Part shown: piece after piece, positions 2,350-15,021 of the stretch | How positions within the stretch are numbered: the stretch's first letter is position 1 | Layout: every line of letters starts with the position of its first letter | From: Bacteroidaceae bacterium | GTDB taxonomy: Bacteria > Bacteroidota > Bacteroidia > Bacteroidales > Bacteroidaceae | Reading direction: 5' to 3' | Length of the DNA: 49,573 nt | Assembly: GCA_017467885.1 (NCBI GenBank) | Contig: JAFUKC010000028.1 | Coordinates: 1 to 49,573 of the forward strand | Program-made: the position numbers and the translations under genes | Notes under the pieces: model-generated | Databases searched by the model: none | What the model saw: only the letters and a program-made list of their open reading frames with translations | Told to the model about the DNA's origin: nothing

Positions 2350-2357
2350 TAAATTTG
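2350..2357 (+). promoter_or_regulatory. Possible -7 element for the six-gene cluster
   Basis: TAAATTTG matches TAnnTTTG exactly. The nearest upstream TTG is 24 bases away, longer than usual. If used, it gives a 5' leader of about 410 bases that contains the hairpins at 2624-2705. No better candidate was seen nearer the gene. Confidence 0.3.
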
Positions 2358-2623
2358 CGCCATCTTCACGCCGAGGGTTAAATTTTGATGTTCGATTTTT
2401 ACATTTAATATTGGAACATCCGGTAGTGGGGATACCATTATATGATAGGCGTTTACTTGACGCTTTGTTCTTGACGTCCGGAAATCTCGCAAATTTTAGG
2501 TATTGTCTTGAATTAAGCAACAGTAGATGTCCCGGGTATGATTTTATACATTTTCCCTTGCTTTATATTGCCGATTGGTTATATAAGTAGGGCTTGTGTT
2601 TTTTTTTCATATCGGCGTGGGGA

Positions 2624-2705
2624 CTCTGCGTTGCTCGTTCAACAATATCGGGCAATGCGAGAGCCTCTGGACGTGGGACGGGTAACAGGTACGATTTCCC
2701 ACGTC
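2624..2705 (+). promoter_or_regulatory. Two adjacent hairpins in the cluster's leader
   Basis: Hairpin one pairs CTCT plus GCGTTGCTCG (2624-2637) with CGGGCAATGC plus AGAG (2649-2663), with one bulged G. Hairpin two pairs GACGTGGGA (2670-2678) with TCCCACGTC (2697-2705). They end about 70 bases before the start codon. No U-tract follows, so a plain terminator is unlikely. A leader controlling expression is possible, but I recognise no known riboswitch class. Confidence 0.5.
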
Positions 2706-2774
2706 TTTCGTATATGGTTGTTTTATAGTTACCATTGGAAATAATGGCGGTTAGGGGAAATGCCGTATATTACT

Positions 2775-4640
2775 ATGAAAATGTTGCGTAATTACCCTAT
2801 CAGTCTGTTATTACTGTTTACATTCTTTTTATTGCAGTTACCATCTTCGGTATCGGCCCAGCGTAAGTTGAATGTCAGTGTCAAAAGTTTTACGCTGGAT
2901 CCTTTTGACGGCACAGCTTCAAACCCCGATTACAGGTTGAGCGATGCCAGCGGCAACCTCTATGCAATAATCAAAGTTCGTCCGGGTGCAAGTGAATTCG
3001 ATTTTAATTTCGGAGCTCTCAAGTGTATTGTAGACCCTGTCGACCACGATGACGAAACGTGGATCTATGTTCAGAAACATGCTAAAACCGTTACAATAAA
3101 ACGTGACGGCTACAAGACAATAAAGAATTACGACCTTGGCATGACTATCGAGGCCGGCAAGACATATATCATGGAACTGACATCCGACCAAATAACCACA
3201 ATTGTTAAGGCCGAACTTAATATGCAGATGTTGGAGTTCCGTCTTTCTCCTGTGGTAAATGGAGCCATGGTCATGATTAAGAATGCCGATGCCACCGACT
3301 ATGAAATATTCGGAAGCATAGATGTCACCGGCTGTGTTTCGAAAAACATGCCATTCGGCGAGTATGATTATCAGGTTCTTGCCACCAATTACAACACAAC
3401 CGAAGGTCGTGTAAACCTAATCTCTTCCGATTCGACATACATCGAGAATGTCACTCTAAAATCGAACTTCTCACAAATAACTTTGAATGCAGGTTCCGAT
3501 GCCAACATATACATAAACAACGAATATAAAGGCCGTCGTATCTGGACAGGTGCACTTAAGGCCGGCGAGTATGTGGTGGAGTGCCGCCAAGAGAATCATC
3601 GCAGCACAAGCCGGCGAATACTTGTACACGCCAACAATAACGAAACCATAGAGTTGCAGCAGCCTATTCCTATCACCGGAAACCTCTCGCTGATATCAAA
3701 TCCTGCGGGAGCATCAATAGCAATCGACGGAAAGCCTTACAATGACCGGACACCCTGCAATATTAAGGACCTGCTCATCGGTCGCCACACAATAACCGTG
3801 TCAAAGCCGCAATATGCACCGGCAACAAAAGTTGTGGAGATAAAAGAGGGCGAGATAACAAATGCTCATGTAACATTAAGCAATATAGGCAATGTTAAAA
3901 TAGAGTGCGACCCTTACGGAACATTATACGTAGATGGAAAGCATGTAGGTTATACCCCACAAACAATATCTGTGGCAAGCGGATATTACAATATAGAACT
4001 TCGAAATTATAGCCGTAAATATAAGAACATAAAAAAGAGAGTATATATCGATACCTCTAAAGGTACTTATAATTTCAAAATGAAACGCATGTATCAGTAT
4101 CGCAACTATTTCTATGTGCAAGGTGCAATGCAGTTCGGTTCGTTGCCGGCATTCGGCGGCGGTATAGGTTTCTTTGCCGGTAACTTCAATATGCAGGCCG
4201 ATTACATGATTGGTACAAAAGAGTCCAATGCATATTGGAACGAAGTCAACCCCACGACAGGCCAGATGAGTGAACCTTTGGAGTTCTCCTACGAGCCTAC
4301 ATTCATAGGCGGTCGTGTTGGTTATGGCTTCATTTTGGGCTCTCGCTTCAGGTTTACACCGCAGGCCGGTGGCGGTGTTGTTTCCATCGCAGGCAAATAT
4401 GATTACGCCGATGAACAGACATCGTTCTCAATGGAGATGGATGGCTATGCAGCTGTTATGACATTTGGAATGCGTATGGATTTTGCATTTGCATCGTGGA
4501 TAGGCCTGACGGTAACTCCCGAGTTGTGGGTTCCGCTTAAAAAGTCCGATACCTTCGATGCGCTGTCCGAAGTTTCGAAGGATATTAAAGGTTGGGCAAG
4601 CGGTTTTAATTGCCGTTGCGGATTATACATAGGTTTCTAA
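2775..4640 (+). CDS. PEGA-repeat protein with C-terminal barrel-like domain
   Basis: I chose the start at 2775 because it gives a clean signal peptide ending near VSA-Q; in-frame ATGs at 2760 and 2781 also exist. The 621-residue product has a beta-rich N-terminal half, then PEGA-type repeats at about 235-295 (divergent), 304-368 and 372-430. Each good repeat has the pattern of a short strand, a D-G-K turn, TPC/TPQ, and a G-x-H/Y-x-I strand. From about 440 to the end, alternating strands rich in Gly and aromatic residues end in GLYIGF, as in outer-membrane barrels. PEGA domains are small beta domains found in surface proteins. A role as outer-membrane anchor for the cluster is inference. It is the first gene of six, 25 bases before the next. 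Confidence 0.8.
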   Translation: MKMLRNYPISLLLLFTFFLLQLPSSVSAQRKLNVSVKSFTLDPFDGTASNPDYRLSDASGNLYAIIKVRPGASEFDFNFGALKCIVDPVDHDDETWIYVQKHAKTVTIKRDGYKTIKNYDLGMTIEAGKTYIMELTSDQITTIVKAELNMQMLEFRLSPVVNGAMVMIKNADATDYEIFGSIDVTGCVSKNMPFGEYDYQVLATNYNTTEGRVNLISSDSTYIENVTLKSNFSQITLNAGSDANIYINNEYKGRRIWTGALKAGEYVVECRQENHRSTSRRILVHANNNETIELQQPIPITGNLSLISNPAGASIAIDGKPYNDRTPCNIKDLLIGRHTITVSKPQYAPATKVVEIKEGEITNAHVTLSNIGNVKIECDPYGTLYVDGKHVGYTPQTISVASGYYNIELRNYSRKYKNIKKRVYIDTSKGTYNFKMKRMYQYRNYFYVQGAMQFGSLPAFGGGIGFFAGNFNMQADYMIGTKESNAYWNEVNPTTGQMSEPLEFSYEPTFIGGRVGYGFILGSRFRFTPQAGGGVVSIAGKYDYADEQTSFSMEMDGYAAVMTFGMRMDFAFASWIGLTVTPELWVPLKKSDTFDALSEVSKDIKGWASGFNCRCGLYIGF

Positions 4641-4665
4641 CAAAAGAATAAACGATATTATACGT

Positions 4666-6882
4666 ATGAAAAAGTTTCTTTACATATTGCTTTCATGCTG
4701 CACTCTGTTTTGTGTATCGTGCAAAGAAGAAAACCCGTTTTTTGAGGATGAATCCAATACCGATTGGGAGTATTTCCCCTCTGTTGTTGCACGATACCTC
4801 ACCACAAGTCAAAAGGAATATTATGCGGAATCGTCTGCCGGTACATACTACATGTATATAACATCGATAGAAACTCCTTGGGTGTTTAACAGTACTCCGG
4901 AGTGGATTTCTCTTACTCCTTCAGCGGGCAGCGAAAGTGCAGATGTGTCAATGAATGTACAAGAGAATAAATCGACCACTTCGGGCCGAACAGCAGTGTT
5001 TGATTTGGCTTCGGCCGATAGTGAGTGGGATTATTCCATCCCCATCAGCGTTACACAATCGCAGGCTTCTCCCTACATTTATATTACCAAAAATGATGAG
5101 CACTATCTGAATGTAACATTTACCGGTGCAGCTGCCAATGATGAATATACGGTAAATGCAAACTTTTCATGGACTGCAGTAGCGTATAATGATGAAAAAT
5201 TCCTTCAGTCTTGCGATTGGATAAAATTAAGCAAGACGGCCGAAGATAAAATTCGCATATCGGTTGATGCTAATACCACCGGTAATTGGCGCTATGGTAA
5301 TGTGGTGTTCTACATTTATGATAATGAACCTGTTCTATATTTAGATGTGTCGCAAAGTGCACCTAATATGACAATATCTACCGACACTTTGTCTTATGAG
5401 CGTGCCGGCGGTGTAAAAAACCTGACAATTACCTCCGATGCTCCTTGGAGTGCAACAACCCGGCAGGCTTGGATAGAGTTGGAGCCTTCGAGCGGAAAGG
5501 CCGGTGAATCTACACTGAAAATTTCTACAACCCCCAATACATCTACAGCCTCTCGAACAGGTTATGTGGATATTGCTATCGGTGAAAAGGTTACATCGAT
5601 TGTGGTAGAGCAGGATGGTGAAGTGGTGGCTGTTTCACCGACTTATATTTCTATAGATGCCGATGGTGGCAAGGCTACCGTAAATGTCACCAGTAACACC
5701 GATTGGAAGGTTAGTTTAGGTAAAGATGATTATATGTTAATTGGTGGAAATGATTATATTCCTGCTACAAGAGTAAAGATAATAAAGCCAATAGTAATAC
5801 ATGATTTACCTGTAGAGTCGGTTCATTTAAGCGACACTGTTGGCAGTGGCAACGGTTCGTTTACTGTTACGGTTGATAAAAACACCACTTCACTCGAGAA
5901 CAGGTCGTTAAGGATTTATGTAAGTACAACAAGCGGAAGCGCAAGTAAATACGTGCGCCTGTCGCAAGCGGCACGTACATTGAAGCCCGATGAAACGATT
6001 CTGCAATTTGGCAGCAGTGCAGGCTCTCGCAAAGTCTTTGTCAATGCCGATGCCGCATGGACCGTATCCGACAATCAGGATTGGGTAGAGGTCAGCCCCT
6101 TATCGGCCACAGGCAGCGATTCACTCACTGTTTCGGTAAAAGAGAATTTCTCGGGAACGGAACGCAACGACACCGTATATCTTAATATGGGCGATGGCAA
6201 TGTCAAGTTGTATATACAACAACAAGGGAAATATTTTAACATTGCCGACCCCGAACTGCAGTTTACATCCAAAGGCGGTGTACATGCCATATCTATAAGC
6301 AGCGACGCCGAGTGGAGTGTGAAAGTGAGTGATGCCGGTTACGGAACCGATTGGATAACTCTTTCCGAAACTTCGGGCAAGGGCGATTGCAATATCGATG
6401 TTACAGCAGCCGATAATCCCTCGTTGTCTGCGCGCGAGGTAGAGGTGCAGTTATCATCGGGGTTCAGAATCTATAACTTCTTATTTACACAGGCGGGCCG
6501 TTATCTGAAACTTAACACAAACCGTTTGACATTTGCAAAGAAAGGTGGCACACTGAATGTGCAGGTGCTCACCGATGGCGAATTTGAAGTATCTACCACC
6601 GATTCGTGGTACAACTATACTGTCAACGAAAAAGTTGTGACAATTACAGCCGAGGAACATACAGGCGATACTCCGCGAAGCGGTTCTCTGCAGTTTGTAT
6701 TGAAAGGTCTTAAGGCCGGCGAGGTTGCCACTCCCGTAACCCTCTCGATAGAGCAATATGCGAAGCCTGTTTATATTGTTCTGGAGGAGTATGACGAAGA
6801 GATAAGCCTTGATGATATATCCGATGGCAACGTAGTGATAACCATTGGAGGTTTTAAGGATGATGTTAGTTTGGATTATTAA
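4666..6882 (+). CDS. BACON-repeat lipoprotein
   Basis: The 738-residue product has a lipoprotein signal with lipobox cysteine 19 (FCVSC). The rest is a chain of about seven all-beta units of 80-115 residues, roughly 58-135, 136-233, 234-318, 322-438, 443-522, 525-612 and 614-700. Most show the BACON pattern: an N-terminal strand, a G-G or A-G turn, TSDAPWS/SSDAEWS, W-I/V-x-L/V, S-P/E-x-S/T-G, and a final Q-x-G/A strand. The fourth unit carries an insertion near 352-395. BACON domains are often linked to carbohydrate or mucin binding in Bacteroidetes, but no enzyme domain is attached, so a structural or adhesive role at the surface is more likely. It is the second gene of the cluster. Confidence 0.85.
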   Translation: MKKFLYILLSCCTLFCVSCKEENPFFEDESNTDWEYFPSVVARYLTTSQKEYYAESSAGTYYMYITSIETPWVFNSTPEWISLTPSAGSESADVSMNVQENKSTTSGRTAVFDLASADSEWDYSIPISVTQSQASPYIYITKNDEHYLNVTFTGAAANDEYTVNANFSWTAVAYNDEKFLQSCDWIKLSKTAEDKIRISVDANTTGNWRYGNVVFYIYDNEPVLYLDVSQSAPNMTISTDTLSYERAGGVKNLTITSDAPWSATTRQAWIELEPSSGKAGESTLKISTTPNTSTASRTGYVDIAIGEKVTSIVVEQDGEVVAVSPTYISIDADGGKATVNVTSNTDWKVSLGKDDYMLIGGNDYIPATRVKIIKPIVIHDLPVESVHLSDTVGSGNGSFTVTVDKNTTSLENRSLRIYVSTTSGSASKYVRLSQAARTLKPDETILQFGSSAGSRKVFVNADAAWTVSDNQDWVEVSPLSATGSDSLTVSVKENFSGTERNDTVYLNMGDGNVKLYIQQQGKYFNIADPELQFTSKGGVHAISISSDAEWSVKVSDAGYGTDWITLSETSGKGDCNIDVTAADNPSLSAREVEVQLSSGFRIYNFLFTQAGRYLKLNTNRLTFAKKGGTLNVQVLTDGEFEVSTTDSWYNYTVNEKVVTITAEEHTGDTPRSGSLQFVLKGLKAGEVATPVTLSIEQYAKPVYIVLEEYDEEISLDDISDGNVVITIGGFKDDVSLDY

Positions 6883-6905
6883 TAAACGGATAAAAATAGA
6901 ACATT

Positions 6906-8324
6906 ATGAATAGATTTAAAGAATTTTTCTCACTGCTTATTATTGTTGCACTATTCTGTGCATGTGACTCGGACAGAAACGAACCTGTGTTGGATGGTGA
7001 TACGTCGGCTTCAACCGAGCAGTTCAATACATGCAAAATGCATTTTAACGGCATAATAGATGATTACGACGGCCAAACACGTGCAACCACCGGTTACGCA
7101 TGGGCCAATGGTGATAAACTTTTTATCCGTTTCAACAACGAAGAGAAGTACGACGTATGTGGCTTTGCAACCTATTCCACATCAACCAAGGATTGGACTG
7201 TAAGCTATGCCGGTTCGCTCGAGAAGGATAAGACATTGCCTTGCGAGGTTTACTTCTTTACCAATTATACAGCCGATGGTTACTATGGTGTGCAGCTTAC
7301 AGCCAACAGTGCCATATATGTCGATTCCATAGGCAGTTACAGTGTTTCGGGCGGTACAATAAACCTCTCGGCCAAATTGGAGCCGAAAACTGCACGCTTG
7401 AGATTTATCTCGGCCAACACAACCAAACATCATGTTTTTGGTTTGGGATACTATAACTCATTCGATCTTGAGAGTGACGAGTTTACATATTCATCGGAAA
7501 GAATGGACTTAACTTATAGTTATTCTTCTACAGCAACCGATGGCTTTAGCTATTCCACAGACTATATATATGGTTTCATCGATTATGACAACCTTTCCAT
7601 ATTGTCTTCGGTAGACGATGGAGTAGTATATCAGAAGAGTAGCGAAGATATGCTGCTCGAGCCGGGGGTAAGTGCTTATCTTACAACTCCATCCACTGCG
7701 GTAAACAAGGGATGGTCGGTTTATTCCACAGTGGCAATGTTGAATGTTACTTATGAAGATCTTATCACCGATGGCGGCATCAGTGGTAGTGCGGATGATT
7801 ATTCCGAGGTTGATTATTTGGGCCTTAGTGTAAAATGGGGATTGACAAATGTCGGTGCAACCACCACATCCGAATATGGAACATATTATGTGTGGGCCGA
7901 TCCTTACGGAACAGTATCACCCGGAAATTATGCTTCAGGTTATAGTTCGTATTCCTATATCTCGGGACTCACCAATTATGATGCTGCAGCCTACAATTGG
8001 GGCAATGGTTGGCGTATGCCTACAACAAGCGAGGTTGAAGAACTCGCGAATAAATGCATCTTCAGAGAGTGTACGTACAATGGTGTTGACGGTCTCGCGT
8101 GTATAGGAGTCAGCGATATTACCGCAATATTCTTTCCATACAGTGGGTATCAAACGGCTCTTACTTCTTATTCCAAACGTGGTTCGTCTGCATATTTTTG
8201 GACCGGTGATTATTATTATAGTAGTAGTAACTATGCCTATTGTTTTTACTCTGCTAATAGTGACAAACTTAGTTACGTTTATAAAAAATATGCAATGCCT
8301 ATCCGCCCTGTAAAGGATAAATAA
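6906..8324 (+). CDS. Fimbrillin-like lipoprotein with Fibrobacter-type C-terminal domain
   Basis: The 472-residue product has a lipoprotein signal with lipobox cysteine 20 (LFCAC). The region from about 45 to 270 resembles fimbrillin-like Bacteroidales proteins: an early TRAT string, then W-A-x-G-D and many short strands rich in Tyr, Ser and Thr. From about 295 the protein matches the Fibrobacter succinogenes major paralogous domain (DUF1566-like): YLGLSVKWGLTNVGA, YVWADPYG, WRMPTTSEVEEL, a gap, FWTGDYYYSSSNY, and a final PIRPV. The domain is found on many surface proteins of this phylum and its role is unclear. The protein sits third in the cluster and may be an exposed component. Confidence 0.75.
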   Translation: MNRFKEFFSLLIIVALFCACDSDRNEPVLDGDTSASTEQFNTCKMHFNGIIDDYDGQTRATTGYAWANGDKLFIRFNNEEKYDVCGFATYSTSTKDWTVSYAGSLEKDKTLPCEVYFFTNYTADGYYGVQLTANSAIYVDSIGSYSVSGGTINLSAKLEPKTARLRFISANTTKHHVFGLGYYNSFDLESDEFTYSSERMDLTYSYSSTATDGFSYSTDYIYGFIDYDNLSILSSVDDGVVYQKSSEDMLLEPGVSAYLTTPSTAVNKGWSVYSTVAMLNVTYEDLITDGGISGSADDYSEVDYLGLSVKWGLTNVGATTTSEYGTYYVWADPYGTVSPGNYASGYSSYSYISGLTNYDAAAYNWGNGWRMPTTSEVEELANKCIFRECTYNGVDGLACIGVSDITAIFFPYSGYQTALTSYSKRGSSAYFWTGDYYYSSSNYAYCFYSANSDKLSYVYKKYAMPIRPVKDK

Positions 8325-8338
8325 TAATGATGTTGCCT

Positions 8339-10177
8339 ATGAAACAGATTATTTTTGTTGCAGTCGGTCTGTTATTGTCGTTTGGTGCGGTTGCCCAAAA
8401 TTGGGACTATGTAACCGGCTCGGGCGAATATTACTATGGCATAGGTGTCGGTGAAACAATGGAAGAGGCCGATAAGGCGGCCTTGGAGGATTTGATTTCG
8501 TCGATTTCCACGAGTGTTTCAAGTGAGTTCACCTCGATAGACGAGGTTACCAATAAAAACGGCGATGTAGATACAAAAAGCTATGCAAGAAGTTGCATAA
8601 ACACATATTCGCAAACCTCCTTGCGCAATACCCAAAAGCAGGTTGTGGGCAAGGAACCGCGTATAACCGTTCGTCGATGGATAAAATGCAGTGAAATATC
8701 CGCAATATATGAAGATAGAATTGCCAAGGCAAAGGATATGATTCCTTATGCGATTGAAGCTGAGCAGAACGGCAAGCTTGATATGGCACTTCAGTACTAT
8801 TATTGGGCCTACTCGCTGATTCGTTCCACACAAAACCCCGACAGGGTGAAGATGAACGACAAGGTACTTATGAATTGGATACCTATGCAGATGGAGAATA
8901 TTCTCTCCAATGTTGATGTACGTTTCGAGGGGTGCGAGGATAATTTTGTCGATTTGCTTTTTACATATAAAGGCAAGCAGGTGTCGAGCATCGATTTTCT
9001 CTACTCCGACGGGCGTTCCGATTGTACAGGTACGGCACGCGACGGCAGGGGTATGATTGAGATGGCTCCCGGGCATACAGCGGAATACTATCATATTACG
9101 TTGGAATATGAATACAAGGGCCTGGCACGTGGCGACTCCGAGATGAACAGTGTGCTTGATGTTGTACAAAAACGTTCTTTCCCAAAGGCCGAAAAGGTAA
9201 TATCGGCCAAAGATGTATCGGCTGCCAATAAAGTAAAACAAGAAAAGGCTGCTGCCAAGAATGAGATGGTGGTTACGGCAAGCAGTGGAGCCGACGAGGG
9301 TGTATCTTCCACTCAATTGGTCGAGGACAATACAAAATATCTTGAAACCTTCAATAAAGTGGTGAAGGCTGTCTCTGCACGCGAGTATAAGAATGCGCAG
9401 AGTTGCTTCACCATCGATGGCCTTGATATGTATAATAAACTTATATCTTACGGCTCGGGACGTGTAGTGGGTGTTCCTCAACCGGTTTTCTACAAGGGTG
9501 CAGCCAACAAGGTTGTCGTACGTGGCTTGCAAATGTCGTTCTCGTTCTCTCATGGAACAAAGAAAACATTTGTCGAGGATGTGGTTTTTACCTTCGACAA
9601 CGATGCGCGTATATCGAATGTGGCTTTCGGCCTCGGAGATATTGCCCAAAATGCAATATTGGTGAAACCTACAGGCTGGCGCGAAGATACCCGCGAGTTG
9701 ATACTCGAGTTTATGGAGAACTATAAAACAGCCTATTGCTTGAAACGTATCGATTACATCGAGAGTATTTTCCACGATAATGCCACCATTATAACAGGTA
9801 ATGTTGCACGAGTTACAAATAGGTCGCTTATGAGCGATTCGCGTGTAACCGATCTTGGTAAGTCGGTCATTACATATAACAAACAGACAAAAGCCGAGTA
9901 TATAAAGAATCTTCGCAGGGTATTCTGTAATAATGAATTCATTAATATACGTTTTACCGAGAGTGATGTTATGTGGCTCGAAGGCGAGGAGGGCGAAGTG
10001 TTCTCGATACAGATAGCACAGGACTACAACTCTTCGAGGTATGCCGATAAGGGATATCTTTTCCTTATGGTTGATGTTACAAACCACGACGAGCCGTTGA
10101 TAAAGGTGAGAACATGGCAACCCGATAAGGACCCGAATTTCGGTTTGTATGGTCCGGGGCACTTTTACGATTTTTAA
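8339..10177 (+). CDS. Exported LPP20-like protein with NTF2-like tail
   Basis: I prefer the start at 8339, which gives a standard signal peptide (MKQIIF to AVAQ, about 20 residues); in-frame ATGs at 8327 and 8330 are possible. The 612-residue product has an LPP20/FlgT-N-like domain at about 25-115 (G-x-G-E-T-x-E-E-A-D-x-A-A-L pattern, then a conserved strand ending VRRWIKC). A helical segment follows at 120-170. The last 130 residues (about 470-605) resemble an NTF2/SnoaL-like fold, with FMENYKTAY and FHDNATI. LPP20-type domains occur in outer-membrane assembly proteins; no catalytic motif is visible. It is gene four of six and is related at its N-terminus to the next gene. Confidence 0.7.
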   Translation: MKQIIFVAVGLLLSFGAVAQNWDYVTGSGEYYYGIGVGETMEEADKAALEDLISSISTSVSSEFTSIDEVTNKNGDVDTKSYARSCINTYSQTSLRNTQKQVVGKEPRITVRRWIKCSEISAIYEDRIAKAKDMIPYAIEAEQNGKLDMALQYYYWAYSLIRSTQNPDRVKMNDKVLMNWIPMQMENILSNVDVRFEGCEDNFVDLLFTYKGKQVSSIDFLYSDGRSDCTGTARDGRGMIEMAPGHTAEYYHITLEYEYKGLARGDSEMNSVLDVVQKRSFPKAEKVISAKDVSAANKVKQEKAAAKNEMVVTASSGADEGVSSTQLVEDNTKYLETFNKVVKAVSAREYKNAQSCFTIDGLDMYNKLISYGSGRVVGVPQPVFYKGAANKVVVRGLQMSFSFSHGTKKTFVEDVVFTFDNDARISNVAFGLGDIAQNAILVKPTGWREDTRELILEFMENYKTAYCLKRIDYIESIFHDNATIITGNVARVTNRSLMSDSRVTDLGKSVITYNKQTKAEYIKNLRRVFCNNEFINIRFTESDVMWLEGEEGEVFSIQIAQDYNSSRYADKGYLFLMVDVTNHDEPLIKVRTWQPDKDPNFGLYGPGHFYDF

Positions 10178-10242
10178 TTTATTCCGATATTCATAAATAA
10201 AGTAAATTATTAAAACTGATGTTTAATATTAAAATTACCGCT

Positions 10243-10935
10243 ATGAAAAAGATTATTATGTTGTGTATGGCAGTCGTAATGTCGTCTGTCGTAGCTTTAG
10301 CACAGGATGCACGTGAATTGGCAAAGCAGCAGAAGGAACTGAATAAGGTTCATGCAGATTTGATTAATCAGAAACCTCTGAAGGATGCAAAAAAACAGGC
10401 TAAAAGGTTGCGTAAAGATAAGTATCAGGTAGCTGCCGGCGACCTTGAGATGGAGAAGCAGATAACCTACTCAATGCTTCTCAAGCAGGAGTTGATGTTG
10501 GACGAAGCAGGTTCGCCTGTTAAACGTTATATAACTTCTTCGGGTAATGCAACAGCCGGAACATTCAAAGCTGCACGTGCTGCTGCACGCGAAAGTGCAA
10601 TGGCCGATATTGCTGCAAGCATCGAGACCAAATTGGCTTCGGCAATGCAAAGCAAGGCTGATAATGCACAGTCGAACAGTGAAATGGCAACAACCGTAGA
10701 TAAATATAACGAGCGCAGCAAGGCTATTGTACGTGGTGTTTTGACACGAAGCATCACCACTTTGGTTATCTTCAAAGAGTTGCCCAATAAGAATATCAAT
10801 GTTCGTGTAGATATTGCTTTCGATAAGAAAGAGTTGGCTGCACAGTTGAAACGCAAAATGCAAGAGGAGTTGGAGAAAGAGGGTGACGAGGCATTGGGCG
10901 AAATTGTCGATGAAGCATTGAACAGCATAGAATAA
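10243..10935 (+). CDS. Small exported LPP20-like protein
   Basis: The start at 10243 gives a signal peptide of about 21 residues (MKKIIMLCMA to ALAQ); an in-frame ATG at 10219 would add eight residues in front of it. The 230-residue product has a charged helical stretch (25-75), then an LPP20-like region with TSSGNATAGTFKAARAAARE near 100 and a closing strand VRVDIAFD. The last 30 residues are acidic and helical. It shares the domain idea of the previous gene (repeated Ala-rich helix after a short strand), so the two may pair. The next gene starts only 7 bases after its stop, which supports co-transcription. Confidence 0.65.
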   Translation: MKKIIMLCMAVVMSSVVALAQDARELAKQQKELNKVHADLINQKPLKDAKKQAKRLRKDKYQVAAGDLEMEKQITYSMLLKQELMLDEAGSPVKRYITSSGNATAGTFKAARAAARESAMADIAASIETKLASAMQSKADNAQSNSEMATTVDKYNERSKAIVRGVLTRSITTLVIFKELPNKNINVRVDIAFDKKELAAQLKRKMQEELEKEGDEALGEIVDEALNSIE

Positions 10936-10942
10936 TTCCGTA

Positions 10943-12421
10943 ATGAAACGCAGTTTTATTATCTTGAGCCTGTTGCTGGGAATAACTCTTCCCGGTACGG
11001 CTCAAGATGATTTTGATGATTTCGATAAGGGGTTCGAAGATTTTGTGAAGTCGATAGAAAAGGATTTCGAAGATTTTCGCCAACAGTGTATCGATGAATA
11101 TAACGAGTTTCTTCGCAATCCCTGGAAAGAGTTCGAGAAGGAGAAACCTCGTCCAAAGCCTATAGAGGAGGACGTACCTCCTGTTGTGGCACCAATAGAG
11201 GATGACAAGCCTATAGAAACAAATCCGCAGCCTATAAAGGATGTGGTTCCCGTTGTACCTCCGCAACCTCAGCCTCAACCGGTTGCACCTATCGAGGATA
11301 CCCCGGCACCTCATATACCGACGGTGTCGTTCGAATTTTTCGGCACCGACGCCGAGGTTCGCTGGTCCAATGATATGCGTTTCAGAATTGCTTCTATCTC
11401 GGAAGATGCTTTTGCCGATGCGTTGAATGAAATATCTTCATCATCTGAATACGATAATCTGTTGTACGATTGCCTTAAAATACGTAAAGAGCTTGCTTTG
11501 AGCGATTGGGCCTATCTTTTAATGCTCGATAAGGTTGCAGCGTCGTTATACGGCAAAGACTCGAACGAGGCCACGTTGTTGGTTGGTTATCTGTATATGC
11601 AGTCGGGATATAGAATGTGTTACGGGCACGATGGCTACAGATTATATATGTTGTATGCCAGCCGACACACTATATATGAAAAATCGTATTATAAACGTGA
11701 CGGATACGACTTTTATGTATTCGGGGATAACACGCCCGAAAGAATGTTCTTGTGCTCTGCAAGTTTTCCGAAGGAAGAGAGCTTGTCGTTGTATATTCAC
11801 AACGAGCAGAAACTTGGGTATAAACCCGATGTTAAAAATCGTGAGATAAAATCGGCTCGTTACCCCGAGATGAGTATAAACGTTTCTGTGAACAAGAACC
11901 TTATGGATTTCTATAATACATATCCTTCGTCGTGCATAGATAACAACTTTATCACGCGTTGGGCCATGTATGCAAATACTCCTTTGGACAGCCACATAAA
12001 GGAGCAGATATATCCTACGTTGAAACAGAAACTTGCCGGCTTGTCCGAGCTTGAAGCTGTGAACCGCTTGTTGAATATGGTTCAGACCGGTTTTGTGTAT
12101 GAATATGACGATAAAGTATGGGGCGACGACAGGGCCTTCTTTGCCGAGGAGTCTCTCTATTATCCTTATTGCGATTGCGAGGATAGAAGTATACTCTTTA
12201 CACGCCTTGTCCGCGATTTGTTGGGGTTGGAGTGTGTTTTGATTTACTATCCGGGGCATTTGGCCGCTGCCGTACATTTTACATCGGCAGTTCCGGGCGA
12301 TTACTTCTACTACGCGAACAAGAGATTCACCGTCACCGACCCTACATATATCGGTGCTCCTGTGGGCAGTACCATGACAGGTATGGATAACGCGAGTGCT
12401 ACATTTATCCTGTTGGAATAA
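10943..12421 (+). CDS. Exported transglutaminase-like protein
   Basis: The 492-residue product starts with a signal peptide of about 21 residues. Residues 24-65 are acidic and aromatic (repeats of D-F), then a Pro-rich linker runs to about 125. The C-terminal half carries a transglutaminase-like set: Cys410 in YCDCEDRS, His439 in GHLAAAV and Asp466 in TVTDPTY. Such folds act as cysteine proteases, crosslinking enzymes or peptide-binding scaffolds, and the intact triad makes an enzyme plausible. It closes the six-gene cluster and is followed by a strong terminator. The idea that it processes or crosslinks the other surface proteins is inference only. Confidence 0.75.
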   Translation: MKRSFIILSLLLGITLPGTAQDDFDDFDKGFEDFVKSIEKDFEDFRQQCIDEYNEFLRNPWKEFEKEKPRPKPIEEDVPPVVAPIEDDKPIETNPQPIKDVVPVVPPQPQPQPVAPIEDTPAPHIPTVSFEFFGTDAEVRWSNDMRFRIASISEDAFADALNEISSSSEYDNLLYDCLKIRKELALSDWAYLLMLDKVAASLYGKDSNEATLLVGYLYMQSGYRMCYGHDGYRLYMLYASRHTIYEKSYYKRDGYDFYVFGDNTPERMFLCSASFPKEESLSLYIHNEQKLGYKPDVKNREIKSARYPEMSINVSVNKNLMDFYNTYPSSCIDNNFITRWAMYANTPLDSHIKEQIYPTLKQKLAGLSELEAVNRLLNMVQTGFVYEYDDKVWGDDRAFFAEESLYYPYCDCEDRSILFTRLVRDLLGLECVLIYYPGHLAAAVHFTSAVPGDYFYYANKRFTVTDPTYIGAPVGSTMTGMDNASATFILLE

Positions 12422-12457
12422 TACAAACTAATTTTAAACAGCTTCTTACAGGTCTCA

Positions 12458-12503
12458 CGAGACTGTGTTAAAAAACGATTTTAACACAGTCTCGTTTTTT
12501 ATT
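12458..12503 (+). terminator. Terminator of the six-gene cluster
   Basis: A perfect 16-bp stem (12458-12473 with 12479-12494, loop AACGA) is followed by six T residues. It starts 37 bases after the last stop codon of the cluster. The minus strand has no T-run after the stem, so it acts in the plus direction. Confidence 0.95.
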
Positions 12504-12515
12504 GTGCAGTATCGG

Positions 12516-12540
12516 AGTGTGCAAAAATTGCACACTTTTT
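12516..12540 (+). terminator. Second terminator-like hairpin
   Basis: AGTGTGCAA (12516-12524) pairs with TTGCACACT (12528-12536) around a three-base loop, followed by a short T-run. It lies 13 bases behind the main terminator and may back it up. Confidence 0.55.
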
Positions 12541-12570
12541 GCAAAAAAGGTGCGATTATATAATTTTTTC

Positions 12571-12601
12571 TTGTGCTTTGTTTTTGTCGCGTTTAAATTT
12601 G
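12571..12601 (+). promoter_or_regulatory. Promoter of the ABC permease gene
   Basis: TTG at 12571-12573 and TAAATTTG at 12594-12601 are spaced by 20 bases, matching the Bacteroidetes -33/-7 pattern. Transcription would start near 12608, about 40 bases before the start codon. Confidence 0.65.
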
Positions 12602-12645
12602 CATGTAAAGTTTGCAAAAACGGGTATTAAAAAAGAAACATCTCT

Positions 12646-15021
12646 ATGATTAAGAACGCGATAAAACAACTCCTGCGCTACAGAAAGTTTACATTGTTGA
12701 ATATTCTGGGCCTTACGGTAGCCTTTACGGTTGCTTATGTATTCTTTACGGCGGCAATCTTCGACCTGACTTTTAACGATGGTATAAAAGACAGCGATGA
12801 AATATTTGTAGTAACATATAAGCATGCTGATATAAGCCCGGGGAGATTACCATCTGCCATGGTACGTATGTTGGTCGATGACAATCCCTATGTAGAGAAC
12901 TATCATTATGGGCCAAGTATGGTTGTACAACAGTATTATGATTCCAACGGAGAGGAAGAGTATCTTTTTTCGGGTGAATACACACGTAAAACAGTGGATA
13001 TGCTGGGTGTGCAGTTGCTCGATGGTGATTGGAATTTTGTATACGAACATGGGGCAATTGCGCTGAATACTACTACAGCCGATGAATTAGGGGTTAAGGT
13101 TGGCGATGATATTGTGTTGAAGGTAGATGATGGAAGAAAGAATATCATGGTGGGTGCAATATTCGATGATTTTCCAAAGAACAGTGATTTTCGCAATATA
13201 AATTCTATTGTGAGGAAGTCCTACGATCCGGAATATTACGACTCCTCCGATTGGCAGATGTTGCTTATGTTCTTAATGGTGAAACTGAATGACGATGCCG
13301 ACAAGGATGATTTTCTATCGGTCTTTTCCCGTCGGTTGGCCGAAAACAGGCCCGATGAACCAATAATAGAGGGGATGACACCCGATAATGTGGCAGAAAA
13401 ATTCGACTTGGTTCCTCTGACCGACTCGACAAGGCTTCCCGAGGTGTTTTTTCATAGAACCGACATTGCAAAGTCCTACATATATCTCTCTATTTCGCTG
13501 CTTATTCTGGCCATTGCCTTCATAAACTTCTTTAATATGTTTGTGGCACTTGTTCCGCGTCGCATACGCAGCATAAACACACAGAAAGTGTTTGGTGCAA
13601 GCACGGCTGCATTGCGTCTGGAACTTGCCATAGAGGCCTTGCTGCTTGTTGCCGGTGCCATGTTGCTGTCGGGGGGCATAATTACACTTTTGGAAGATTA
13701 CGAGTTGGTTATTAACGATTTTGGCACATACTCTCCTTTTGTCAATAGCGATGCCGCTCTTCTGCTTTTGTCGGTGGCCTTGGTCGGGACGCTGCTTGTT
13801 ACCGCCTACCCCTTGTGGTACATAACTTCGTTTCAACCGGCCTTTGTGCTTAAAGGGCATTTCGGCTCGTCGCCCGTCGGCAAAATGCTGCGAAATACAT
13901 TGATAGGCCTGCAATTTGTGGTTTCGTTTGTTTTTGTCACAGTGACACTGCTTATAAACAGGCAGTACGATTTCATGTGTGACCAAGACCTTGGGGTGGA
14001 TTTTAAGAATACATATTTCGGAAGTGTTTCGTATCACTTGGACCACCCTGTCACGCAATCGATGCTGCCCGAACTGCGCGATGCGCTGATGAGCCATCCG
14101 CAAATAGTGGATGTGACATTCTCGCAATCGCTCTTCTCTTCAGAAAGGGTCGGCAAGATGCGTTTCCTCGATCTCCAAAATGAAGAGAAACGCGACATAA
14201 CCATTAATGCGTATAGAGTAAGCAGGAATTTTCTCGATTTCTTGAAGGTGGATATTGTTGAGGGACGGAATCTTAACGAGACGGAAGAGAGTATCGGTCG
14301 ATGTGTGGTGTTTAACGAAACCGCCCGGGATATGTTCGGCATTAAGGTGGGCGACGTTGTGAATGGCTTCCTTACGGTAGGCTTCTGTCGCGATTTTCAT
14401 CAGGAGTCGGTGCAGCAAGAGATAATTCCCTCGGGATATTTCTGCGGCCCGTTGCAGGCTGAAGCCGATTTTTTCAGCGGTTGTTACATAAGAACCACCG
14501 ACGATTGCAATTTTTCTTCGTTGTATGAACATTTCAAGAACGAACTCAAGGCTATTCAACCTATGACTCCCGAGGCGGTTTTCTTGAACGATTTTAAGAC
14601 GTGGAATGAACATAACTGGTATAGCAGCGAACTTGCATGGATGCGTGTAATGTTTCTTGCTTCGTTAATATCCATTATGGTTTCGTTGCTTGGCGTATTC
14701 GGGTTGATTGCCTACGAAACAGAATACAGAAGTCGCGAGATTGCCATCAGACGTGTGAACGGAGCAACGGTGGGAGAAATCCTTTCGCTGTTCAACTGCA
14801 GTTTTATCCGTATTCTTACTCTGTGCTTCGCCGTATCGTTGCCGCTGTCGGTGTATGCCATGAATCTGTGGCTGTTGGAATTTAAAAGCAAGGTGCCCTT
14901 CTCGCCGACGCCTTACCTGTTATCTTTTCTATTGGTATCGGTGGTTACTATTCTTGTTGTGACGTTGAGTGCATGGCGGGTGGTGAACCGTAATCCGGTG
15001 GAGGTACTTGGCAAAGAGTGA
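12646..15021 (+). CDS. ABC transporter permease, MacB/FtsX type
   Basis: The 791-residue product has the eight-helix double-FtsX layout common in Bacteroidetes. One membrane segment lies near residues 15-40, a periplasmic MacB-like domain at 45-275, three helices at 280-400, a second single helix near 420, another periplasmic domain at 440-655, and three more helices at 660-785. The final motif NPVEVLGKE matches the usual ending of this family (NPVEALRYE). Such permeases need a separate ATPase, and none is adjacent; the ABC-F gene nearby is a soluble translation-type protein and not a partner. Possible substrates include lipoproteins, peptides or antimicrobials. It has its own promoter and shares a terminator with metA. 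Confidence 0.88.
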   Translation: MIKNAIKQLLRYRKFTLLNILGLTVAFTVAYVFFTAAIFDLTFNDGIKDSDEIFVVTYKHADISPGRLPSAMVRMLVDDNPYVENYHYGPSMVVQQYYDSNGEEEYLFSGEYTRKTVDMLGVQLLDGDWNFVYEHGAIALNTTTADELGVKVGDDIVLKVDDGRKNIMVGAIFDDFPKNSDFRNINSIVRKSYDPEYYDSSDWQMLLMFLMVKLNDDADKDDFLSVFSRRLAENRPDEPIIEGMTPDNVAEKFDLVPLTDSTRLPEVFFHRTDIAKSYIYLSISLLILAIAFINFFNMFVALVPRRIRSINTQKVFGASTAALRLELAIEALLLVAGAMLLSGGIITLLEDYELVINDFGTYSPFVNSDAALLLLSVALVGTLLVTAYPLWYITSFQPAFVLKGHFGSSPVGKMLRNTLIGLQFVVSFVFVTVTLLINRQYDFMCDQDLGVDFKNTYFGSVSYHLDHPVTQSMLPELRDALMSHPQIVDVTFSQSLFSSERVGKMRFLDLQNEEKRDITINAYRVSRNFLDFLKVDIVEGRNLNETEESIGRCVVFNETARDMFGIKVGDVVNGFLTVGFCRDFHQESVQQEIIPSGYFCGPLQAEADFFSGCYIRTTDDCNFSSLYEHFKNELKAIQPMTPEAVFLNDFKTWNEHNWYSSELAWMRVMFLASLISIMVSLLGVFGLIAYETEYRSREIAIRRVNGATVGEILSLFNCSFIRILTLCFAVSLPLSVYAMNLWLLEFKSKVPFSPTPYLLSFLLVSVVTILVVTLSAWRVVNRNPVEVLGKE

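Follow-up and report, generated by a model that had tools for sequence, protein, structure and literature searches.

The 49,573-nucleotide contig JAFUKC010000028.1 of a Bacteroidaceae bacterium (GenBank assembly GCA_017467885.1), which we will call the window, contains a cluster of six co-directional open reading frames on the + strand (2760–12421), each with a signal peptide or a lipobox. Between the first of these genes and a divergent upstream gene lies a two-domain structured RNA with a kissing loop (2442–2713), which the initial annotation of this DNA had missed. We will call it the leader. The features are:

2350..2357, + strand: TAAATTTG, a weak candidate for a Bacteroidales -7 box ahead of the leader; across the window the pattern shows no enrichment
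2442..2543, + strand: 5' domain of the leader, with stacked helices and a conserved loop; 94 bits with model R2 (this copy is in the training set)
2486..2491, + strand: half A of the kissing loop, CUCGCA
2612..2713, + strand: 3' domain of the leader, with three nested helices and a weak U-run CUUUCGUAU; 100.8 bits with model R1 (training set)
2656..2661, + strand: half B of the kissing loop, UGCGAG
2760..4640, + strand: gene 1, with a signal peptide, an N-terminal domain, three PEGA repeats, and a barrel-like C-terminal region that ends in Phe (alternative start: ATG at 2775)
4666..6882, + strand: gene 2, a lipoprotein with CKEE at the lipobox cysteine (surface-export-like) and seven BACON units
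6906..8324, + strand: gene 3, a lipoprotein with a FISUMP/Lcl_C head at the C-terminus
8327..10177, + strand: gene 4 (LPPa), exported, with an N-terminal LPP20 domain and a C-terminal NTF2-like domain (Pfam Cds6_C)
10219..10935, + strand: gene 5 (LPPb), small, exported, LPP20-like
10943..12421, + strand: gene 6 (TG), exported, transglutaminase-like, with conserved Cys-His-Asp
12457..12495, + strand: intrinsic terminator, a stem of 17 pairs followed by a U-run

The candidate -7 box follows what we take to be the Bacteroidales consensus; a pattern search upstream of the leader found no complete Bacteroides-type promoter.

The stretch that includes the leader (2360–2760) folds at -134.6 kcal/mol, versus -103.5 (standard deviation 5.7) for shuffled sequences (z = -5.4; 0 of 100 shuffles were as low). 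Among the loci that we fetched for comparison (named below by L numbers), blastn found relatives of the leader in 20 distinct loci (E < 1e-5, 61–81% identity), mostly 5' of cluster genes. Their alignment has a 5' domain, a variable middle, and a 3' domain, and a 6-mer in the 5' loop is complementary to, and covaries with, the apical 6-mer of the 3' domain. The 44 pairs in 20 sequences give 874 cells, of which 94.7% can pair, versus 40–49% when the pairing is slid. Two-sided changes occur at 20 pairs, versus 11.0 (standard deviation 1.8) in shuffles, and for all five measures, 0 of 500 shuffles reached the observed value. The kissing helix is 99.2% paired in these 20 sequences, and four of its six pairs are doubly changed.

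Because the structure was derived from those 20 training sequences, we tested it on copies outside the training set. Of the 52 sources that hold a 3' domain, 49 also have a match to the 5' domain, upstream and on the same strand. (The misses are L185, L287, and L288; the last two are weak copies from the window's own genome.) Leaving out these three, L126, L289 (a repeat copy), and L266 and L271 (repeat training copies) gives 45 non-training copies with both domains aligned, with near-duplicates kept. The window was added to them as a ruler only, and the resulting 46 of 46 matches to the 5' domain describe a selected set. In 43 of the 45 copies, the two kissing 6-mers are complementary at every position; of the two imperfect ones, L286 looks like an alignment shift and the other has a gap. 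Overall, 265 of 270 kissing pairs are complementary, as against a mean of 233.6 and a maximum of 249 when the halves are permuted (0 of 10,000 permutations reach the observed value), and 24 of the 26 copies with non-consensus 6-mers still match perfectly, with the caveat that models R1 and R2 favor consensus loops and may favor matching 6-mers. The pairing and covariation show a conserved RNA in which a kissing loop links two hairpin domains. In L302, L303, and L308, the 3' domain is partly palindromic and gives a score on both strands.

To describe the spread of the leader and of the cluster, we used sets of 201 genomes from the family, 198 from the order, and 296 from the phylum. Model R1, which describes the 3' domain, matches 141 of the 201 family genomes (E ≤ 1e-3) and finds as many as 17 copies in a single genome, with five in that of the window. 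In the order set, 33 of 198 genomes match, many of them weakly, and in the phylum set (E ≤ 1e-6) the only match, 1 of 296, is the window's own genome. The cluster loci, which were fetched for LPPa or TG, contain 22 leader matches in 81 sources and 15 in 80 sources. In 34 of 36 placed matches (L062 and L173 counted separately, and the window left out), a cluster gene is among the next five genes on the same strand, and in 19 of 36 it is directly next. Since these loci were picked for holding the cluster, this shows the position of the leader, not an enrichment.

The leader is also positioned consistently relative to start codons. Most of the 39 copies that we considered come from ranking genome-wide matches by their score, so they are the best-scoring copies and not a random sample. 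In 39 of 39, the start codon of an ATG reading frame on the same strand lies within 131 nt downstream (35–131 nt in 37 of 39; there was no control set). Furthermore, in 44 of 46 copies, a U-run (at least 6 U in the last 9 positions) follows the long-range closing helix of the 3' domain. Products encoded behind leader copies include BspA-type repeat proteins, Big_2 proteins, a DUF4595 lipoprotein, and PEGA, LPPb, and BACON proteins. The first product looks exported in 28 of 39 cases, as judged by eye and not blind. In L304 (1–5662), a leader copy is followed by a LytTR gene and then by FHA-, phosphatase-, and Ser/Thr kinase-like genes (the latter by eye). And in L298 (1259 onward) and L194 (4525 onward), leader copies precede operons with exported proteins in which a radical SAM-like gene (by eye) is fourth or third.

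As to the six genes, the initial annotation had described six genes in a row on one strand with a strong terminator at the end, and this holds. It also gave gaps of 7–65 bases; the gaps are indeed short, but the exact range depends on the choice of starts, and first-ATG calls give 25, 23, 2, 41, and 7 bases (range 2–41). Each gene does encode a signal peptide or a lipobox, but lipoboxes are found in genes 2 and 3 only, while genes 1, 4, 5, and 6 have ordinary signal peptides (N-termini judged by eye). For gene 1, the proposed PEGA repeats are confirmed (Pfam, 2.3e-29, three stretches). The proposed barrel-like end is called from the C-terminal Phe, a hallmark of outer-membrane barrels, which is present in 29 of 30 homologues. 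Gene 1 is probably an outer-membrane anchor. The PEGA repeats would be periplasmic if the putative barrel has both its ends on that side of the membrane. The seven BACON-like units of gene 2 are all recovered (Pfam, 1.3e-47, seven stretches). Gene 3 had been called fimbrillin-like, which we do not find: none of the 18 members of its family, the window included, matches a fimbrillin family in Pfam (E ≤ 0.01). Instead, 11 of the 18 match FGE-sulfatase and 5 match Lcl_C. Gene 3 itself matches Pfam Lcl_C (2.3e-4) and NCBIfam FISUMP (5.2e-6), both below the curated cut-off. FGE-like domains are also found in many PEGA proteins that lack the barrel. The initial annotation had not identified the FGE/FISUMP-type heads.

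The two lipoproteins have a feature in common. A simple pattern, a lipobox followed immediately by two or more acidic residues, matches 18 of 28 BACON homologues and 15 of 23 gene-3 homologues, and none of the homologues of gene 1, LPPa, LPPb, or TG. In this bacterial group, a signal of this kind directs lipoproteins to the surface. (Surface sorting of lipoproteins in Bacteroidales is covered by a section of PMC12632263.)

Two LPP20-like proteins had been proposed as well. For gene 4, the Pfam match is below the cut-off (3.1e-4), but 20 of 22 family members, including the window's, match LPP20 at E ≤ 0.01, and the LPPa profile matches PDB 4kzs, an "LPP20 lipofamily protein" (E = 1.2e-5). For gene 5, the evidence is a match below the cut-off (2.3e-3). 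A recurrent family of about 330 amino acids with signal-like N-termini (in L057 and L029) shares the NTF2-like C-terminal part of LPPa without the LPP20 part. The transglutaminase-like assignment of gene 6 has a weak Pfam match (Transglut_core, E = 0.059). Of its catalytic-type residues, C412 and H439 are invariant and D466 is at least 90% conserved across 30 sequences, the window included. Gene 6 also has an Asp-Cys-Glu-Asp motif. A protein-processing role, as had been suggested, fits with the conserved Cys-His-Asp. Directly past the terminator of the cluster is a gene for an FtsX/MacB-type permease (12646–15021).

We used LPPa as the marker for cluster loci. Full-length LPPa (a match of about 570 amino acids or more) is present in 26 of the 201 family genomes, and TG was also matched in 26 of these 26, versus 37 of the 175 others (Fisher's exact test, 1e-15, without correction for phylogeny). 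In the order set, 23 of 198 genomes have LPPa, counting partial matches. An independent scan of named genomes gave, among the matches listed, 80 LPPa-centered loci, of which 79 were usable. (L158 has no LPPa call and was left out.) Only 35 of the 79 span at least 18 kb. Some contigs are present in two collections (L062/L173, L064/L157, L081/L154, and others), and the counts over 79 loci use the named loci only. Relative to LPPa, the numbers of loci with a partner on the same and on the opposite strand are 36 and 0 for TG, 43 and 0 for LPPb, 27 and 0 for BACON, 19 and 0 for the gene-3 type, 30 and 1 for PEGA-barrel, and 53 and 6 for any PEGA or its N-terminal domain. The ordered block of PEGA-barrel, BACON, and gene 3 occurs in 11 of 79 loci, LPPb is adjacent to TG in 17, and LPPa-LPPb-TG occurs in 6. 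The distance matrices of LPPa, LPPb, and TG are correlated (r = 0.60–0.72 across 30 loci; 0 of 5,000 permutations reach this).

The entire six-gene order is found in one of the 79 loci, L173 (= L062), from Paraprevotella xylaniphila (strain YIT 11841), where a leader copy occupies 3837–4122. L157 (= L064), from a metagenome-assembled genome, has the same order with gene 3 split in two. The order is thus kept in relatives, and its absence from all of them had been named as grounds for giving up the idea of a single system. The idea itself, that of a single conserved outer-membrane or surface system, survives in a looser form: linkage and co-occurrence support a modular Bacteroidales system, but not a fixed order of six genes, which is rare, with the modules shuffled. 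We infer that the six proteins would build a surface structure.

Some relatives have fuller forms of the system, which the initial annotation had not described. Directly before LPPb-TG, 8 of the 79 loci have a block of caspase, sigma, and anti-sigma genes, for example:

L154, 11953..16373: genes for a caspase-like protein, an extracytoplasmic function (ECF)-like sigma factor, and a candidate membrane anti-sigma factor, then LPPb and TG

Relative to LPPa, these genes are on the same strand in 10 (caspase), 10 (sigma), and 9 (anti-sigma) cases and never on the opposite strand. One caspase-like protein matches Peptidase_C14 (7.8e-15); His98 and Cys172 are kept in 10 of 10, and the N-terminus is hydrophobic and signal-like in 13 of 13. 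At E ≤ 0.1, the sigma-like proteins match Sigma70_r4_2 in 8 of 11 members and Sigma70_r2 in 5 of 11, and the anti-sigma candidate has a single hydrophobic segment (by eye in the alignment). It is tempting to speculate that a periplasmic caspase cuts the anti-sigma factor. The window's cluster lacks this block, and a sigma search of its own genome (63% complete) found no copy. The own genome does have a second TG operon on another contig (C33; L109, 9467–15423), with a leader copy, a LytTR-domain gene, LPPb, a gene that we take to be DUF4384-like, two uncharacterized genes, and TG. In other TG loci, L109 included, LPPb and TG are paired with a partner of 280–300 amino acids, which presumably resembles DUF4384 or DUF5683 proteins, and often with PEGA genes.

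A related cluster, in L081 (= L154), contains an intact diversity-generating retroelement (DGR) at 9291–14462, with a reverse transcriptase, a gene that we take to be HRDC-like, one template repeat, and two variable repeats. The variable repeats are in a PEGA-FGE gene, where 16 of 16 mismatches are at template A, and in the gene-3 homologue (18 of 22). That the DGR targets the heads argues, from one case, that the heads bind variable targets. We also considered a DGR acting on gene 3 of the window and rejected it: the own genome (63% complete) has no RVT_1 match and no template copy of the 3' end of gene 3. Reverse transcriptase matches are present in 63 genomes, and we fetched 11 further loci around the best ones (stretches of 4.7–20 kb). 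Of these, 10 have pairs of template and variable repeats with mismatches mostly at template A (T read on the other strand). LPPa, LPPb, TG, and PEGA have no match in any of the 11 within the fetched 4.7–20 kb, so the DGR is no regular part of the system.

We propose that the structured leader, the six genes, and the terminator form one transcription unit and would give a single transcript. The leader would act in cis, as an attenuator or a riboswitch-like element. In the kissed fold, a terminator-like helix would be completed and transcription would stop; if the fold is disturbed, by a ligand, by a protein, or by the state of transcription or translation, RNA polymerase would read into the operon. 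Together, the six proteins would build an assembly for surface display. Its anchor in the outer membrane would be gene 1, whose PEGA repeats would lie in the periplasm; gene 2 would supply the stalk, as a BACON lipoprotein, and gene 3 the tip, as a lipoprotein whose head is C-type-lectin-like. Also in the periplasm, genes 4 and 5 would form a scaffold of the LPP20 type, and gene 6 would be a cysteine protease-like enzyme for the maturation or release of its partners. We put attenuation first because 44 of 46 copies have a U-run directly after the closing helix, the layout of an intrinsic terminator that the whole fold would be needed to complete, and we lean, by a modest degree, towards an attenuator-like leader before a surface-display operon transcribed as one unit. 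A broader proposal, which we find plausible if slightly short of probable, is that these leaders are a hitherto undescribed class of two-domain kissing-loop RNAs that defines a regulon of largely cell-surface genes in Bacteroidales, with the PEGA/BACON/LPP20/transglutaminase-like operon as a recurrent target, and that all copies answer one common signal by transcription attenuation.

Several observations weigh against these proposals. The window's own leader is one of the two copies with a weak U-run (CUUUCGUAU), so termination at this leader is doubtful. For a two-state switch, the competing local 3' terminator hairpin is paired in 81.5% of cells and lacks clear covariation, its score being reached by 74 of 500 shuffles (for an alternative 5' hairpin, 92.9% and 14 of 500). 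Most cluster loci show no leader copy, partly because of contig ends. Many leader copies precede other genes, including some that are cytosolic (LytTR, by Pfam, and glycosyltransferase-like and HTH-like genes, by eye), and by a crude signal-peptide score there is no clear excess of exported first genes behind the leader (17 of 39 versus 33 of 107). On the side of the genes, the exact order is rare (1 of 79 and the one locus with a split gene) and the modules are reshuffled elsewhere; TG is present in 63 family genomes, a few of them with partial or weak matches only; and neither the co-occurrence test nor the distance-matrix test is corrected for phylogeny.

The leader might instead belong to a family of independent, trans-acting small RNAs that have their own terminator and lie upstream of surface genes by chance or because of a common promoter architecture. 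Such a family could account for the helix and U-run at the end of 44 of 46 copies, for as many as 17 copies per genome, for the diverse downstream genes, and for the cluster loci without a copy. However, an independent small RNA has no need of a start codon on the same strand within 131 nt, as seen in 39 of 39 copies, and the U-run of the window copy is poor, so we consider this unlikely. It is less likely still, in our judgment, that the leader is a 5' untranslated region that stabilizes the mRNA or controls translation without controlling termination (for instance, by shielding long surface-protein mRNAs from decay). The narrow range of distances to the start codon, the compact kissing-loop fold, and the weak U-run in the window would suit such a role, but stability does not require the U-run that directly follows the closing helix in 44 of 46 copies. 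Attenuation by a leader in cis remains our preferred explanation.

For the genes, a loose neighborhood of surface genes, in which TG and the LPP20 proteins serve some other purpose in the periplasm and the BACON/FISUMP genes can replace one another as cargo, would explain why the modules are reshuffled, with the exact order in 1 of 79 loci, and why many TG loci have LPPb with a gene presumed to be DUF4384-like or DUF5683-like and no BACON gene. We think this rather unlikely, as it does not account for the linkage on one strand, the PEGA-barrel/BACON/gene-3 block (11 of 79), the adjacency of LPPb and TG (17 of 79), or the co-occurrence and correlated distances. We also considered that the cluster might be a type V-like pilus locus, with gene 3 as the tip and the other genes as parts for assembly or anchoring. 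Like the tip pilins described in the available text of PMC12632263, gene 3 and many of its homologues encode lipoproteins that carry a FISUMP/FGE-type head at the C-terminus, and one relative's DGR is aimed at the gene-3 homologue. But the match of 0 of 18 family members to fimbrillin families, the lack of a recognized stalk pilin gene in the gene maps, and the outer-membrane-barrel-like end of gene 1 make a pilus improbable.

When a leader RNA is found many times in one genome, it usually points to a physiological signal that its copies share. The present leader is common in the window's family, often before exported or adhesin-type genes, and knowing what it responds to could explain how these bacteria of the gut and rumen switch their surfaces. 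The sources we searched assign no function to the operon that follows, a modular envelope system. In relatives, this system also includes a caspase-like protease together with a sigma/anti-sigma pair, and one relative adds a retroelement by which the heads are diversified. The predictions are specific and can be tested in a named species, Paraprevotella xylaniphila.

Parts of the system resemble known ones. In type V pili of Bacteroidales, the tips are diversified by DGRs (PMC12632263), and a DGR hits the gene-3 homologue in one relative of the cluster. However, we found no fimbrillin match here, and the available text of that paper does not name PEGA-barrel, BACON, LPP20, or transglutaminase-like partners. 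Bacterial FGE-domain proteins with PEGA and other N-terminal extensions (OCTIN-related) are described in PMC5915273; they are like the PEGA-FGE proteins of related clusters, but no gene cluster is named in the available text. The window has a PEGA-barrel protein and a FISUMP/Lcl_C head instead of a PEGA-FGE protein. LPPa and LPPb have LPP20-like domains, as in the FlgP/LPP20 family, but neither window protein has a lipobox (by eye). Gene 6 may be likened to the LapG-type transglutaminase-like cysteine proteases, as an exported protein with a conserved Cys-His-Asp and an Asp-Cys-Glu-Asp motif. However, the Pfam scans of gene 6 gave no such family (Peptidase C93), and profile searches gave no PDB relative.

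The leader does not seem to be a known RNA. Rfam 15 has no match at the gathering cut-off in the window or in the 20 loci with other leader copies, and we rejected this possibility. Permissive scans of two leader copies gave four matches far below gathering (E = 1.2–4.9) in one and none at E ≤ 1 in the other. Bacteroidetes do have structured RNAs in Rfam, including Bacteroidales-1 and Bacteroid-trp, and some are rated cis-regulatory (PMC2864571); they are from the same bacterial group, but no Rfam 15 family matches the leader. The available text of PMC7160235 has nothing on the leader RNA. A published candidate to compare it with is HMP2_1881 (PMC8040213), an element of 108 bp that is predominantly from Bacteroidetes, is commonly near radical SAM domains, and was expressed in 13 of 13 instances. 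Its length is close to the 102 positions of the 3' domain, and the leader copies in L298 and L194 precede radical SAM-like genes (by eye), but in the available text of PMC8040213, HMP2_1881 is credited neither with a 5' domain or a kissing loop nor with a role as a leader. Judged by its description, as opposed to its sequence, HMP2_1881 could coincide at least in part with the leader's 3' domain; should the two be identical, then the 3' domain is already listed as an anonymous candidate. In the literature searched, which largely excluded subscription journals, we recognized no published description of the gene set or of the leader RNA. A structured leader RNA before a surface operon is a known kind of arrangement, while this RNA family, its kissing architecture, its copy number, and this type of operon appear to be new relative to the sources that we searched.

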